Shown here: in pieces, positions 1 to 32,055 of the stretch
Numbering within the stretch: position 1 is the first letter of the stretch
Layout: each line of letters opens with the position of its first letter
Source: Eubacteriaceae bacterium
Lineage (GTDB): Bacteria; Bacillota; Clostridia; Lachnospirales; Lachnospiraceae
Direction: 5' to 3'
DNA length: 46,410 nucleotides
NCBI GenBank assembly: GCA_910575665.1
Contig: CAJTFB010000031.1
Coordinates: 1 to 46,410, forward strand
Notes under the pieces: generated by a model
What the model was told of the DNA's origin: nothing
Seen by the model: only the letters and a program-made list of their open reading frames with translations
Databases searched by the model: none
Made by a program: the position numbers and the translations under genes

Positions 1-63
1 GGAGGGCTTCCTCCTATGGTTAAACGACAGCAATACTATGATTCCCTGAAAGAAGCAGCATAG
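1..63 (+). CDS. IS3-family transposase OrfB, C-terminal 20 residues (partial)
   Basis: This is the open frame from the window edge to the TAG at 61-63, with tail GGLPPMVKRQQYYDSLKEAA. The tail resembles the end of the DDE integrase-type OrfB of IS3 elements, and the degenerate IS3 remnant near 7.5 kb ends similarly (ELKKAA). The catalytic core is not in the window, so activity cannot be judged. Confidence 0.55.
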   Translation, partial: GGLPPMVKRQQYYDSLKEAA

Positions 64-111
64 GATACAAAATCCTTGAAGAAAATGTGTCAACTAATCT
101 TGACAAAATCA
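1..111 (+). mobile_element. Right end of an IS3-family insertion sequence (partial)
   Basis: Bases 1-63 read in frame as the last 20 residues of an IS3-type OrfB transposase, ending LKEAA and a TAG stop. About 45 bp later the sequence TGTGTCAACTAATCTTGACA resembles, on the other strand, the terminal sequence of the element at the right end of the window. The end at about 111 (TGACAAAATCA) is inferred from the TG..CA ends usual in this family. The remainder lies outside the window. Confidence 0.6.
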
Positions 112-188
112 AATGAATAAGATACAATTTTAAAAAGGAAAATCTTAAAGGAAAGTTCACCTGCGATAAATTTAGTGTTTTCAAGGGT

Positions 189-217
189 TTGCGGATATTT
201 TAATAACAAAATATAAC
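189..217 (+). promoter_or_regulatory. Sigma-A-type promoter of the P-loop gene
   Basis: TTGCGG at 189-194 and TATAAC at 212-217 are separated by 17 bp, about 60 bp upstream of the ATG at 278. It lies outside the inferred IS end, so the gene probably has its own promoter. Confidence 0.5.
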
Positions 218-277
218 AGCTAATATTTCCCTTAAAAATCATCAAATCACAATCGGAATTTGTAAGTGAGGTGTGTT

Positions 278-766
278 ATGGCAAAATTACTTTGTATATG
301 TGGAAAGATTGGTTGTGGTAAAACATATTATGCTAATCGATTAAAAGAACAAGAGCATGCTGTGATTTTATCTACAGATGAAGTAACCTATGATTTAACA
401 AATAATCAACAAGGTGAAGGTTATGATGAATTTGCTAGAAGAGTTAATTTATATTTAAGAAAAAAAGCAGTGGAAATTGTAAATGCAGGATGCACTGTAA
501 TTTTAGATTGGGGATTTTGGACAAAAGAAAATAGGAAAGAAATAAAAAGATATGGAGAAAATAATGGGGTTTTGGTAGAAATGCATTATATTGATATTGA
601 TGATAAGACTTGGTATGAAAATATTGAAAAAAGAAATAATGAAGTCATATCTGGAAATGGCGGATCAAGTTTTTATGTTGATGAGGGATTACTAAATAAA
701 GTTTCTTCTCTGTTTGAAATTCCAGAAAAAGAAGAAATAGATATTTGGTATAAACCACACCAATAA
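278..766 (+). CDS. P-loop (zeta-toxin/phosphotransferase-like) kinase
   Basis: The 162-residue protein opens with a Walker A loop (GKIGCGKT, about residues 9-16). Next comes LSTDEV, the position where small P-loop kinases bind substrate, and then a VILDWGFW strand. Size and layout resemble AAA_33/zeta-toxin/chloramphenicol phosphotransferase-type kinases that phosphorylate small molecules; the substrate cannot be predicted. I chose the ATG at 278 because GTGAGG lies 6 nt upstream; an in-frame GTG at 266 would place the start on that ribosome site. Codons are strongly A/T-ending compared with the genes to the right, which suggests acquisition. It stands alone between an IS end and a small ORF, with no antitoxin-like partner. 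Confidence 0.6.
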   Translation: MAKLLCICGKIGCGKTYYANRLKEQEHAVILSTDEVTYDLTNNQQGEGYDEFARRVNLYLRKKAVEIVNAGCTVILDWGFWTKENRKEIKRYGENNGVLVEMHYIDIDDKTWYENIEKRNNEVISGNGGSSFYVDEGLLNKVSSLFEIPEKEEIDIWYKPHQ

Positions 767-26995: not shown

Positions 26996-27745
26996 TTATC
27001 CATTCCAAATACCGTCTTTTTCCACTTTATCCCAATCTACTGTCAGGACATCTATCTTTTTTCCTCGGTATCCTGTTTTTCGGCTCTCTGTAATGTATTT
27101 CTGACGCATAAGGTTGTCCAGAGCCCTCTGTACCCGTTCTTTCGGTACTTTATTATACTCTGCCACGTTGTTTACCGTCTTCCAGTAGGTAACTAATGTC
27201 CTCGGCCTGGACCGCAGCCTGTTCAGGCTGACAAATATCAGGTCATAATAATGATTCTTTTCCTGGGACTGCCTTGGCATTTCCACATAGCTTGTAGATA
27301 CGGATTTCAGCTGATTACTAAAAGATGATTTAACTCCATAAATGATCACACGCTTACCGAGTTCTTTCAGATATTCCGCAGCTTTTGTAAAATGTGCATC
27401 CCCTGTAAATAAAATATAAACCTCTGGGCTCTTTTTCTTCGACGCATAACGATAAATATAATCCAGAATGATCACATCTGTGAAATCTTTATCAATGCCC
27501 AGTTTTTCGCTGGCTGTATGGACAATTCCTGAAGTTATTTTTTTCAGGCGGTTCATCTCGTGTTCAATATTGGGTTCTGAAAAATCTCCAAAGATATACA
27601 AATTCTTTATCTTAAAATCCTGTTTTAACTCTGCAATCCACTGCTCTACATTGGGCTTCATCTGAAATTGATTCATGTATCCATAAAACCAGTGCTCATA
27701 ATCCACAAAAGCAACCGCATCGGTCAGCTTACGCTTTCCAAACAT
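26996..27745 (-). CDS. NYN-domain protein (LabA/DUF88-like) with C-terminal winged helix
   Basis: The 249-residue soluble protein has a PIN-like NYN nuclease fold. The first acid is in AVAFVDYEHWFYG (about D14); further acids are in KDFTDVIILDYIYRY and ILFTGDAHFTKAAEYL (about 115-130), where the NYN active site lies. The C-terminal third (about 170-240) looks like a winged helix: YWKTVNNVAEYNKVPKERVQ then RALDNLMRQKYITESR. NYN proteins are generally RNases or RNA-binding proteins; the target is unknown. It has its own promoter and AGGAGGGGG before ATG. Confidence 0.8.
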   Translation of the reverse strand: MFGKRKLTDAVAFVDYEHWFYGYMNQFQMKPNVEQWIAELKQDFKIKNLYIFGDFSEPNIEHEMNRLKKITSGIVHTASEKLGIDKDFTDVIILDYIYRYASKKKSPEVYILFTGDAHFTKAAEYLKELGKRVIIYGVKSSFSNQLKSVSTSYVEMPRQSQEKNHYYDLIFVSLNRLRSRPRTLVTYWKTVNNVAEYNKVPKERVQRALDNLMRQKYITESRKTGYRGKKIDVLTVDWDKVEKDGIWNG

Positions 27746-27785
27746 TTTCCCCCTCCTTTCCTATTATTTTTTTACAACATTACAT

Positions 27786-27815
27786 AGTATAGCACAACTA
27801 TGATCCCTGACGCAA
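27786..27815 (-). promoter_or_regulatory. Sigma-A promoter of the NYN gene
   Basis: On the minus strand TTGCGT (27815-27810), 18 bp, TATACT (27791-27786) with a TGC extended -10. It lies between the phosphoesterase stop and the NYN ATG. Confidence 0.55.
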
Positions 27816-27822
27816 GTTCGAC

Positions 27823-28464
27823 TTAGCATTTGTTTTCCAATAAAGTCATATTTCTTCGTCGCTCTGCGTCCACTTCGATCCACTCATCCAGTGTCAGGGG
27901 CGTGTAATCCGAGAACATGCAAAAGCAATTGATCATGTTACATGGGATTGGTTCCGGCTTATCTACATATCTGGATTTCACCCTGGTGGCCGCCGTCTGC
28001 CGGATAAAATCATTGACCAGAATCTCATCCTGGGAATTGTGGACATGGCCATAAAGCATATAGCTCCTCGGTCTTCCTTCATCATCCACCCGGTACTGGC
28101 CATTGTAGCAGAACACGGGATAGTGGCAGAGCACCACCTTGCGCTTGTTATCCCGCAGCTCCTCATAGGTTTTTACCCACTCAAACAGGCTTCGGTCAAA
28201 TTTGCGATGGCGGAGAAAATGGTCGTGATTTCCCTCGATCAGCATAAGATGCCCCTTTAGGCGCCTCAATATGTCATTGGTTTGCTCTGCATTTCCCGCT
28301 GACACATCACCCAGGATCACCACCTCATCCCCATCTCCTACTTTCCGGTTCCACCGCTCCAGGATATACTCATTCATGGCGTCAGCGGACTCAAATCCTC
28401 GACAGTCCAGACGTTGGTTCAGATTTTCATGAAAAAAATGCAGATCGGATATATAATAGCGCAT
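27823..28464 (-). CDS. Metallophosphoesterase
   Basis: The 213-residue calcineurin-like phosphoesterase carries the complete metal motifs: SDLHFFHEN (D7, H9), GDVSAGN, GNHDHF, CHYP and GHVHNS. Its family acts on phosphodiesters or phosphomonoesters in the cytoplasm; the short form resembles uncharacterised prophage and genomic phosphoesterases. It lies 13 bp after the amino-acid ABC ATPase gene and probably shares the transcript, though a functional link is not evident. Confidence 0.88.
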   Translation of the reverse strand: MRYYISDLHFFHENLNQRLDCRGFESADAMNEYILERWNRKVGDGDEVVILGDVSAGNAEQTNDILRRLKGHLMLIEGNHDHFLRHRKFDRSLFEWVKTYEELRDNKRKVVLCHYPVFCYNGQYRVDDEGRPRSYMLYGHVHNSQDEILVNDFIRQTAATRVKSRYVDKPEPIPCNMINCFCMFSDYTPLTLDEWIEVDAERRRNMTLLENKC

Positions 28465-28477
28465 ACACGTCCCCTGA

Positions 28478-29221
28478 TCACAGTATTTTTGATAAAAATT
28501 CTTTCAACCGCTCATTTTTTGGATGGTCAAATACTTCTTCCGGCGTCCCGTCCTCGGCGATGACACCACCATCCATAAACAGCACCCGGCTGGCTACTTC
28601 TCTGGCAAATCCCATCTCATGGGTTACACAGATCATCGTAATGCCGCTGGTGGCAAGTTCTTTCATCACATCCAGAACCTCTCCCACCATCTCCGGGTCC
28701 AGCGCAGAGGTTGGTTCGTCAAATAAGATCACCTCTGGGTCCATCGCCAGTGCCCGACAGATCGCCACCCTTTGCTTCTGTCCACCGGAAAGCTGGTTGG
28801 GATAAGCTTCTGCCTTATCCCATAATCCTGTCCGCCGCAGCAATTCCTCGGCTTTCTTTTTCGCCTCTTCTGGGCTCTTTTTCAAAAGCCGTATCGGCCC
28901 GATCGAGATATTGTCGAGAATGGTCATGTGGGGAAACAGATTGAAATGCTGGAATACCATCATCATCTTCTGACGTTCCTTATTGATATCTGTCCCAGAG
29001 GCTGTCAACTCCGTCCCATCCAAAAAGATCTCGCCTTCCGTCGGCTGCTCCAGAAGATTCAGGCAACGCAAAAAGGTAGATTTGCCACATCCAGAGGGAC
29101 CTATAATGGCCACTACTTCTCCCCGGTGGATCTCCGTCGTGATCCCCTGCAGTACTTTATTGTCTTTAAATTCTTTTTTTAGATTGTTGACCTTTATCAT
29201 TTCCTGTATCTCAGCGCTCAT
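28478..29221 (-). CDS. Polar amino-acid ABC transporter ATPase (GlnQ/HisP type)
   Basis: The 247-residue ATPase has Walker [10 protein letters not shown]-loop [12 protein letters not shown], signature LSGGQKQR, Walker [15 protein letters not shown] and switch CVTHEM. The sequence from Q-loop to D-loop is characteristic of glutamine, histidine or arginine importers. It overlaps the fused permease gene by 11 bp and is therefore coupled to it. Confidence 0.93.
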
Positions 29222-30737
29222 TTCTCTTCAGCCTCCTCTCCATTCTTCCTACCAGCCATGTCAATATCATGACGATAATAAGATATACCAGCGCCACAGC
29301 GATCAGTGGCAGGAATGCCTCATAGGTCCGGCTGCGGATATAATCACCGCCCCTGGTAAGATCTACAATTCCAATATAACCAGATATGGATGTCTCTTTG
29401 ATCAACACGATAAATTCATTGGCAAGAGGTGGCAGTACATTCTTAAACGCCTGGGGCAGAATAAAATACCACATGGACTGAGCATAAGTAAAGCCCAAGC
29501 TCCGCCCTGCCTCTAGCTGTCCCTCATCAATGGAATTAATTCCGGAGCGGACGATCTCTGCGATATAGGCAGAGGAATTCACGCCGAAAGCGATCACCGC
29601 CACCACAACTTTATTGATATCCGATGAGGCAAAGATTACGTAATATATGATCAAAAGCTGTATCATCGCCGGCGTCCCCCGGATCACCGTCAGATATGCC
29701 CTGAGAATCCAGTTCAGCAGCTTTGCCTTTCCAGTCTTGTCACAGGTGCTGCGAAGGATGGCGATCAGGAATCCAAGTACGATACCGATCAACACGGCAA
29801 AGAAACTGATGCAGAGCGTTGTCCGAAGTCCCTGGATTATGTATTTCCAGCGGTTTTCTTTGACAAAATTGTTATTCAGTTTTTCTAAGAAACTCGCTGC
29901 CGGGGAAGTGCTCTCCGCCCTCAGTATGATCACCTGGGTAGCCGTGGTATAAGACTGAGTAAAATCTATGCTCTTTAACCGGTCCTCCGTCACGGTCATC
30001 CCCGCGATGCCCACATCTGCCTTTCCAGACTGTACTGCATTGATGATGGCGTCAAACTCGATGTTTTCAATCTTTAGCTCCATATCGAGAATATCGCAGA
30101 CCGCCCATGCCATATCCACATCGATCCCTGTGATATCTCCGTTCTGCATAAACTCATAGGGCTCAAAGGCGGCATTGGTCGCCATCGTCAGGGTGCCATT
30201 GGCACGCTTCAGGTCCTTATCCGGCTCATATTTAAACTTTCCCCTGGTTTCGTCGCCGATATAATTCTTAACGATCTGATCCAGCGTCCCGTCTTCTTTG
30301 ATCTGGGCAATCGCACCATTGATCTTCTCTTTTAGTTCCGTATTTTTTTTGGAGATACAGATGGCGTATTCCTCCACCGCAAACTCTTCTTCCAGTATCT
30401 GCAGGTCCCCGCTGGTCTCCACAAATTTCTTTGCCGGATTCTCGTCCAGAATAATACAGTCGATCTTTCCGAGCTTCAACGCCTGCACGGCATCTGCCGC
30501 CTTGTTAAACCGCTCTACGGTACTGCCTTCCTCTTCGTAATCTGAGGCATAGATGTCTCCCGTAGTTCCCAGCTGGACTCCGATCTTCTTTCCCGCAAGG
30601 TCATCTACCTTCTGGATCGCCTGCTGCTCGCTGTCTGCTTCCTTTTTGCTGCCACAGCCTGTCATCAGAATCGCTAACGCCAGCAGTCCCAGAACCAGAA
30701 GCCGCACTTGTTTATTACATCGCTTCATATCTTTCAC
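29211..30737 (-). CDS. Amino-acid ABC importer: circularly permuted binding domain fused to permease
   Basis: The 508-residue lipoprotein-membrane fusion has a signal with lipobox LMTGC (C28). Residues 43-162 read as the second half of an SBP_bac_3 domain ([20 protein letters not shown] to the terminal helix [17 protein letters not shown]). After a linker, residues 181-273 read as the first half ([48 protein letters not shown]). A HisM/GlnP-type permease follows (about 300-500, loop [12 protein letters not shown]). In E. coli GlnH the order is the reverse. All fold segments are present once, so this looks like circular permutation or a deletion within a tandem pair, not loss of function. The start is GTG 30737; ATG 30728 is possible. 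Confidence 0.85.
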
Positions 30738-30778: not shown

Positions 30779-30800
30779 TAGTCGGGCGGCGCTGCCTAAC
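30779..30800. repeat. Dispersed palindromic repeat (copy G, diverged)
   Basis: CTAGTCGGGCGGCGCTGCCT resembles the GC-rich centre of the copy at 32901, and directly follows the stop codon of the thioesterase gene, as the copy at 32901 does with hisC. Confidence 0.3.
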
Positions 30801-31180
30801 TACTTCTGGTTTGCTTTTTCCTGGAACTTCTTATTATCGATGATAAATCTTTCGTGTATGCCGCTTCCGATCTTTCCCCGCTCATCCCGTGCCTCTACTT
30901 CAAAGGTCAGTTTTCTGCCATCGATACCGGTGAGTACACTCTCGCAGGTCACTTTCATCCCTATTGGTGTAGGGGCATCGTGGGTGATCTCCAGACGGAT
31001 GCCCACGGTACCGCATCCCTCCTCCAGTTCTTCGGCAACACTTTTCCATGCCGTCTTCTCCATCAGTGCTGTCATCGCCGGAGTAGCAAATACGTCCAGT
31101 GTGCCGCTCCCCATGGTCTTCGCTGTATTACTCTCATCAACGATCGTTGTCTCTTTTCCTTTTATACCTGATTTCAGCAT
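30800..31180 (-). CDS. Hotdog-fold thioesterase (FlK-like)
   Basis: The 126-residue single hotdog domain has the conserved beginning of the fluoroacetyl-CoA thioesterase-like group (GSGTLDVFATPAMTALMEKT) and the central GTVGIRLEITHDAPTPIGMK segment with the His-Asp pair. Relatives hydrolyse small acyl-CoAs. Its substrate here is probably not fluoroacetate, since the family is common in gut Firmicutes. The gene stands upstream of the amino-acid importer, with a cre-like site just before its start. Confidence 0.8.
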   Translation of the reverse strand: MLKSGIKGKETTIVDESNTAKTMGSGTLDVFATPAMTALMEKTAWKSVAEELEEGCGTVGIRLEITHDAPTPIGMKVTCESVLTGIDGRKLTFEVEARDERGKIGSGIHERFIIDNKKFQEKANQK

Positions 31181-31377: not shown

Positions 31378-31407
31378 AGGTCTTGCGTTGTGACGAGCAA
31401 CACTCAT

Positions 31408-31482
31408 CGGGGTGTGGCTCAGCTTGGCTAGAGCGCCTGATTTGGGTTCAGGAGGCCGCAGGTTCAAATCCTGTCACCCCGA
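31408..31482 (+). tRNA. tRNA-Pro (anticodon TGG)
   Basis: The acceptor CGGGGTG pairs with CACCCCG, discriminator A. The anticodon loop TTTGGGT places TGG between CTGA/TCAG-type arms, and the T arm GCAGGTTCAAATCCTGT is canonical. CCA is not encoded. Confidence 0.95.
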
Positions 31483-31550
31483 TTCATGAGGCATCAGCCT
31501 TTATTCAATTATATAAAATGCTGTGGGTTTGATTTTCTGCAGCGACACAT

Positions 31551-31621
31551 GCGGGTGTAGTTCAATGGTAGAACACCAGCCTTCCAAGCTGGATACGTGG
31601 GTTCGATTCCCATCACCCGCT
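31551..31621 (+). tRNA. tRNA-Gly (anticodon TCC)
   Basis: GCGGGTG pairs with CACCCGC. The anticodon arm CCAGC-CTTCCAA-GCTGG reads TCC. T arm GTGGGTTCGATTCCCAT. CCA is not encoded. Confidence 0.95.
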
Positions 31622-31691
31622 TTTTTCTATGCCCGGAGAGTTGAAGGAATCCAGCCATGGAAATATACATGGGAATCCTCGAAATTTTTTC

Positions 31692-31720
31692 TTGACATGT
31701 CCCTTTTTTTATGATAGTAT
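31692..31720 (+). promoter_or_regulatory. Second promoter inside the tRNA cluster
   Basis: TTGACA (31692-31697), 17 bp, TAGTAT (31715-31720), 50 bp before tRNA-Arg; it splits the cluster into Pro-Gly and Arg-His-Gln units. Confidence 0.8.
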
Positions 31721-31769
31721 TTTTAAGGTACTGATTTGATAGATCAGCACTTCAAATCAAATAGATTGT

Positions 31770-31843
<74 letters not shown>

Positions 31844-31856
31844 ATTAATCTCACAT

Positions 31857-31931
31857 GGTGGGTATAGCGCAGTTGGTTAGCGCGTCAGATTGTGGCTCTG
31901 AAGGCCGTGGGTTCGAATCCCATTACCCACC
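31857..31931 (+). tRNA. tRNA-His (anticodon GTG)
   Basis: GTGGGTA pairs with TACCCAC, with the extra G at the 5' end (31857) facing C73, the histidine identity pair. The anticodon loop TTGTGGC reads GTG. Confidence 0.95.
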
Positions 31932-31956
31932 CTTTCCTATCATTAATGTAGGATGT

Positions 31957-32028
31957 TGGGCTATCGCCAAGGGGTAAGGCATAGGACTTTGACTCCTACA
32001 TTCGCTGGTTCAAATCCAGCTAGCCCAG
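31957..32028 (+). tRNA. tRNA-Gln (anticodon TTG)
   Basis: TGGGCTA pairs with TAGCCCA. The anticodon arm TAGGA-CTTTGAC-TCCTA reads TTG. T arm GCTGGTTCAAATCCAGC. Confidence 0.95.
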
Positions 32029-32055
32029 TATGGTTTATTGCAAGCCACGCAGGAC

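Follow-up and report, generated by a model that had tools for sequence, protein, structure and literature searches.

The window, by which we mean the whole stretch of 46,410 nucleotides analysed here, carries an importer gene on its minus strand (29211-30737) that encodes 508 residues from a GTG start. Pfam assigns two PF00497 stretches to its binding part, followed by PF00528. The match to the SBP_bac_3 family is well above threshold (PF00497, 124.2 bits, cut-off 26.4), the permease scores 73.6 bits with the His/Glu/Gln/Arg-type model TIGR01726 (cut-off 42.2), and an ABC ATPase gene adjoins the importer gene, as in PAAT importers. The binding part also matches PF10613 and PF12974; no Peripla_BP model, as would mark a Type Ic (TpMglB-2-like) protein, matches it at E 0.001. 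Features of the locus are collected in Table 1.

Table 1. Features of the importer locus; residues are numbered in the importer protein.
Feature	Positions	Residues	Strand	Basis and remarks
Signal peptide and lipobox LMTGC	30654..30737	1-28	-	Sequence; Cys28 is the likely lipidated residue
D2, lobe 2 segment, canonically the middle third of SBP_bac_3	30402..30614	42-112	-	Pfam, NCBIfam, PDB, segment models
D1C, lobe 1 C-terminal segment, canonically the domain end	30252..30401	113-162	-	PDB matches, segment models
Linker, old C-terminus to old N-terminus	30198..30251	163-180	-	Alignment
D1N, lobe 1 N-terminal segment, canonically the domain start	29913..30197	181-275	-	Pfam, NCBIfam, PDB, segment models
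Linker, binding domain to permease	29847..29912	276-297	-	D1N-permease spacing in fused type A ORFs
PAAT-type permease domain	29223..29846	298-505	-	PF00528, 80.9 bits; TIGR01726; 4yms_D, 1.9e-48
ABC ATPase gene	28478..29221		-	PF00005, 6.2e-40; overlaps the importer gene by 11 bases

A fluoroacetyl-CoA-thioesterase-like FlK gene (30800-31180, minus strand) lies directly upstream of the importer genes, and five tRNA genes (Pro, Gly, Arg, His, Gln) cluster at 31407-32029 on the opposite strand. The ATPase gene is followed on its own strand by a calcineurin-like phosphoesterase gene and an NYN-domain gene (26996-28464). In the window and in the 13 loci of the protein search described below, no riboswitch or T-box reaches Rfam's threshold; only tRNAs do, and upstream RNA elements give no pointer to the ligand.

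In which order do the pieces of the binding domain follow each other? By NCBIfam and PDB sequence matches, residues 39-162 correspond to the second half of SBP_bac_3 (4zv1 residues 107-233, i-Evalue 3.1e-20) and residues 180-274 to its first half (4zv1 residues 9-104, i-Evalue 1.6e-19). As in Table 1, the canonical domain is divided into thirds: D1N, with which lobe 1 begins, D2, which is lobe 2, and D1C, with which lobe 1 ends. The normal order is D1N-D2-D1C, the chain order lobe1N-lobe2-lobe1C of type II (cluster F) proteins; the protein in the window instead reads D2-D1C-D1N-permease, which we call type A. Each segment occurs once, the set is cyclically rotated and a linker joins the old termini, the arrangement of a circular permutant. 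Fusion to a permease is shared with GlnP-like importers, their normal domain order is not. Pfam merely lists two SBP_bac_3 stretches, and domain annotation thus masks the permutation. A sequence-only reading of the gene had set the halves at residues 43-162 and 181-273 with a linker at 163-180, which is correct to within a few residues. It had also placed the permutation at the hinge, and the cut does fall at the first inter-lobe crossover; here the segment matches are computed, and the hinge position and lobe borders are those of LAO-binding-protein structures.

Could the order be an artefact? Among the 13 loci returned by a protein search of genome contigs, all of them metagenome-assembled, 12 (L013-L023 and L025) keep the order of the window at 66-96% identity, five of these at 93-96% in separate assemblies. 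The thirteenth, L024, is a contig end at which the binding-protein end is out of frame with an unfused permease. The sequence-only reading had named misassembly as a danger. Since the same order recurs in 12 other assemblies and in many further genomes, and nothing was found in its favour, we give practically no credence to an assembly error as the source of the order. Chance matching is ruled out by the segment models, since the scores of 164 real ORFs (5th percentile 80.8, 36.5 and 35.1 bits for D1N, D2 and D1C) lie far above the maxima for one shuffled copy per ORF (10.1, 3.3 and 2.9 bits). It had also been suggested to look for the same order in relatives, and a search of 299 genomes of the family found a colinear D2-D1C-D1N match at 49% identity or more in at least 54, counted by eye. 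In 31 of these the match continues through the permease, in some cases past stop codons, where it comprises two ORFs, and in 23 it covers the binding domain only. Outside this set, at least six genomes hold colinear matches at 32-37% identity and at least one a partial match.

Judged from sequence, there are three non-normal orders in the SBP_bac_3 family beside the normal one: type A (lobe2-lobe1C-lobe1N), type B (lobe1C-lobe1N-lobe2) and type C, which is cut inside lobe 2. By LAO numbering, the cut of A lies at the first crossover, that of B about ten residues before the second and that of C in lobe 2. Type B emerged from a second kind of match in 391 genomes of the class, D1C-D1N alone in one piece, which on reading gave D1C-D1N-D2. 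With a D1C-linker-D1N query, at least 58 of these 391 genomes, the window's own included, gave a colinear match with an E-value no higher than 1e-21 that began within the first 8 query residues (counted by eye). One near-colinear match, in G413 (query 24-163), proved to be of normal order on reading and stands outside the census.

Segment models sorted 152 ORFs of loci L001-L164, a sample picked from matches, with order counts that are biased by the queries, into 84 of type A (43 alone, 35 fused, 6 tandem fused), 36 normal (34 alone, 1 fused, 1 triple fused) and 32 of type B, none of them fused. One of the 34 is a cut-off copy, in L005, of the L004 gene, so that one gene is counted twice among the normal ORFs; four ORFs with a lone D2 match of 8-11 bits are excluded from the 152. 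The L140 ORF (460-2316 in reverse-complement coordinates, 619 aa) has about 390 unexplained residues before its permuted unit, and was entered as type A stand-alone all the same. Fused ORFs thus number 41 of type A, 2 normal and none of type B among 43; as the sample was partly drawn with a fused query, we claim no association of fusion with type A. Type C (D2b-D1C-D1N-D2a) was recognised by segment models in two genomes of family f152, which belongs to another class of the phylum. A type C query found the unit entire and colinear within a single ORF (266-321 aa) in 8 of 19 genomes, cut by contig ends in 2 and not at all in the other 9. Type A is likewise present outside the class, in L178/L198 and, in tandem, in L183. 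On plasmids, only two-piece matches were seen among the matches listed (25 of 867 records).

Is the permuted unit sufficient in itself? In the best 29 loci of the family search (L026-L054), it is fused to the permease in 19, among them L026 and L027 with the same ORFs as L019 and L023, and forms a stand-alone ORF in 10. The 10 stand-alone units stop one or two residues past D1N, and the permease is the next ORF. At 6 of 14 junctions read (L032, L033, L035, L038, L044, L058), the permease frame resumes after a single stop, so that fusion and fission are one codon apart. An ORF of the permuted unit alone is the best evidence that sequence can offer for the sufficiency of the unit. All 32 type B ORFs have a lipobox-like motif ahead of their leading segment, as do 33 of 36 normal and 74 of 84 type A ORFs. 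Between model edges, the D1C-D1N linker of 90 type A units measures 17-23 aa (median 20), and the D1N-permease spacing of 41 fused type A ORFs 17-38 aa (median 18).

We propose that the product of the gene unites the lipid-anchored binding domain with the permease of a PAAT ABC importer, with the next gene supplying the ATPase, and that the permuted type II domain very probably folds within one chain into the bilobed amino-acid binder of this importer. The chain would start at the first inter-lobe crossover, make lobe 2 and cross once into lobe 1. The 18-residue linker would then tie the old C-terminus to the old N-terminus, and lobe 1 would be made in one stretch. Folded in this way, the segments should yield a single bilobed domain that has the customary amino-acid site and would dock on the dimeric permease in the manner of other PAAT importers; polar amino acids are the presumable ligands and transport the presumable function. 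The lipid anchor would then be attached to lobe 2 and the permease to lobe 1, as opposed to both on lobe 1 in the normal order, and only one of the two crossover strands would be covalent; the sequence-only reading had added that the cleft might be shifted relative to the membrane. The earlier suggestion of an importer with a circularly permuted, permease-fused binding domain is supported by segment order, conservation, the stand-alone form, dN/dS and pocket residues.

Lobe 2 and lobe 1 of different chains might instead pair, in a domain swap that completes the site only in the importer dimer. According to PMC8025302, GlnPQ consists of two subunits that form a homodimer, and swapped elements have been reported in engineered circularly permuted constructs of ribose-binding protein. 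Against this, the linker of 17-23 aa matches in length the linkers between the domains of GlnPQ, given as 14 and 19 aa in PMC8025302, and is long enough for one chain; moreover, stand-alone lipoproteins bear the same permuted unit and the lobes are joined by one intact crossover. We consider the swap improbable, though the most serious of the alternatives, and retain folding within one chain.

The domain is under purifying selection. When the gene in the window is compared with those of the near relatives L013, L014 and L016, dN/dS of the binding domain is 0.04-0.06; synonymous sites are saturated in the comparisons with L018 and L019. The positions that line the pocket in relatives (N188, F191, F228, A245, G246, T248, R253, T58, T59 and D98 in the window) share their majority residue across normal, A and B sequences; several neighbouring positions differ in type B, and a divergent A group is more variable. 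Conservation of alignment columns, in a comparison that leaves out 14 divergent loci, correlates at 0.76 between normal and A and at 0.67 between normal and B when all rows are used, against 0.01 for shuffled columns. In equal samples of 12 rows, the correlation is 0.84 within normal and 0.80 within A, and between orders 0.65 (normal-A), 0.60 (normal-B) and 0.55 (A-B). At 66 columns conserved in normal proteins, the majority residue is kept at 61 in A and at 53 in B. By this measure, constraint across the orders is similar, not identical, and the conserved columns argue for the same fold in permuted and normal proteins. That the gene is a degenerate remnant of a tandem importer, its binding lost, might be suggested by halves that look like the left-overs of a tandem pair; the low dN/dS, the retained pocket residues and the wide conservation make this reading hardly credible.

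How might a rotated domain arise? Tandem arrays exist in both orders: in L144, three normal units that are almost identical to one another are fused to a single permease, and in L022 two type A units in tandem are fused to a permease. The triple normal-order ORF (L144 / L177:4910-7813, minus strand) is 967-973 aa long. In L143 (588-4034, plus strand), a single ORF of 1149 aa comprises two permuted binding domains, a permease and an ABC ATPase, that is, a whole importer. Duplication followed by partial loss, with the outer pieces of an array disappearing as the sequence-only reading had proposed, could give any rotation. Measured from one segment edge to the next, the D1C-D1N linkers span 17-24 aa and resemble an inter-domain linker of GlnPQ (14 aa). 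In L199 (G880), about 17 residues after D1N resemble the start of lobe 2, with 6.4 bits against at most 4.5 in shuffled sequences, and this stretch is a possible fossil of a lost second domain, although a weak lead. A BLAST of the L199 linker with the lobe 2 of L199 itself gave no match, and among 13 linkers of 20 aa or more between binding domain and permease, none except L199 exceeded shuffles in a search for second-domain remnants. Given the live arrays of L144 and L022 and the weak remnant in L199, a tandem-pair origin of the window gene is plausible. The arrays also invite a nested reading, in which the middle halves of L022-like tandems form a normal domain, the outer halves pair, and the single unit is a by-product. 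Pfam indeed gives L022 three SBP_bac_3 stretches, the best of which spans the middle (179-396, profile 1-131 of 132). However, 78 of 84 type A ORFs, that of the window included, have one unit only and thus no middle domain to nest, and we regard this reading as very improbable; a self-contained permuted unit remains our interpretation.

A change of order can be followed within one genus, g354. There, a gene order of phosphopentomutase-like, PAS-GGDEF, dehydrogenase-like, binding protein, permease and ATPase genes (the first three named by eye) is common in full to L165 and L167, which are type B, and to L168, L169, L170 and L172, which are normal; L166 (B) and L171 (normal) have only the last three genes in common with it. 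Within this one operon, species differ in rotation at 75-85% identity. When the DNA of L172 and L165 is aligned, the upstream region and signal peptide match (L172 bases 1-488, 71%), D1N-D2 match over 531 columns (83%), and the downstream side matches again over 65 columns (83%). A D1C piece of 149 bases is the gene end in L172 and lies directly behind the signal peptide in L165, at 81% identity. On this alignment, a piece of about 150 bp has been transferred from the end of the gene to a place just after the signal peptide. Derotated, the L172 protein is 80-85% identical to three B proteins and 77% and 80% identical to two other normal ones. Values of dN/dS differ little between the kinds of pair, at 0.10-0.13 for B-B, 0.10-0.14 for normal-normal and 0.09-0.16 for mixed pairs, with several synonymous distances above 1. 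The D1C-D1N linker of L165 ends in FTTIEEGKLIMATN, and the mature start of L172 ahead of D1N reads FTTVESGKLIMATN; from this comparison, the N-terminal spacer of the normal g354 protein seems to have turned into the type B linker.

Did the orders arise once or repeatedly? A quick tree of 132 derotated units requires at least seven rotation changes, and an independent quick tree of 115 permeases nine, with 54 of its 112 inner branches weakly supported. A more careful tree of 78 units, which leaves out the 14 divergent loci and, of the 60 type A rows left after that, uses 26, requires five; its starred branches force three changes for B, two for A and four for normal. On the careful tree, AU tests reject type B as one clade (p 0.0005) and do not reject type A as one clade (p 0.098). 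A split of all permuted (A+B) from all normal units is also rejected, in two runs (p 3e-5 and 3e-4), as is a grouping of the two young B groups, chosen after viewing the tree (p 1e-4). Since three changes may also be made up of a single gain plus two losses, some of the supposed gains may instead be returns to the normal order.

The protein in the window has relatives among well-described systems. Free SBP_bac_3 proteins of the GlnH/HisJ/LAO type (type II, cluster F) share its family and pocket motifs, but have the normal order lobe1N-lobe2-lobe1C; in the class, relatives of normal order are up to 60% identical in D1N and up to 58% in the D2-D1C half. The best solved match to the permease is that of Art(QN)2 (PDB 4yms, 1.9e-48), a system in which, unlike in the window, the binding protein is a separate chain. 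A paralog in the same genome (G000:C6, L002; 498 aa) also fuses SBP_bac_3 to a permease, which is 48% identical, yet its domain order is normal. GlnP of Lactococcus lactis (GlnPQ, PDB 6h30) is likewise a PAAT importer with SBP_bac_3 domains N-terminal to a fused permease, but has two in tandem and in normal order, as opposed to one permuted domain in the window. A naturally circularly permuted ABC binding lipoprotein is TpMglB-2 (Tp0684), for which, in the passages of PMC4990184 consulted, a Type Ic / Cluster Bc is proposed, homologues in gut Gram-positives are mentioned, and a crystal structure and glucose binding are reported. TpMglB-2 differs in having a type I sugar-binding fold rather than SBP_bac_3, and these passages describe it without a permease fusion. 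In the open-access literature that we searched, mostly titles and the beginnings of abstracts, this type I protein was the only natural permutation of an ABC binding protein found.

What, then, might rotation mean for these proteins? We tentatively suggest, as an idea that may prove wrong somewhat more readily than right, that circular permutation of type II amino-acid binding proteins in Bacillota is recurrent and still going on at the gene level, with new ends at the cut of A, B or C. The rotation would set which lobes carry the anchor and the permease and how many crossovers are covalent, and so would tune hinge opening and docking. Natural circular permutations are mostly known from the comparison of distant homologues. 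Here, a full natural series is at hand, which comprises four orders counting the normal one, tandem arrays of two of them, forms with and without a fused permease, and the swap within genus g354. This series makes the route of duplication and partial loss directly testable with natural proteins, and the same holds for asking if both crossovers and fixed tether points are required in a Venus-flytrap.
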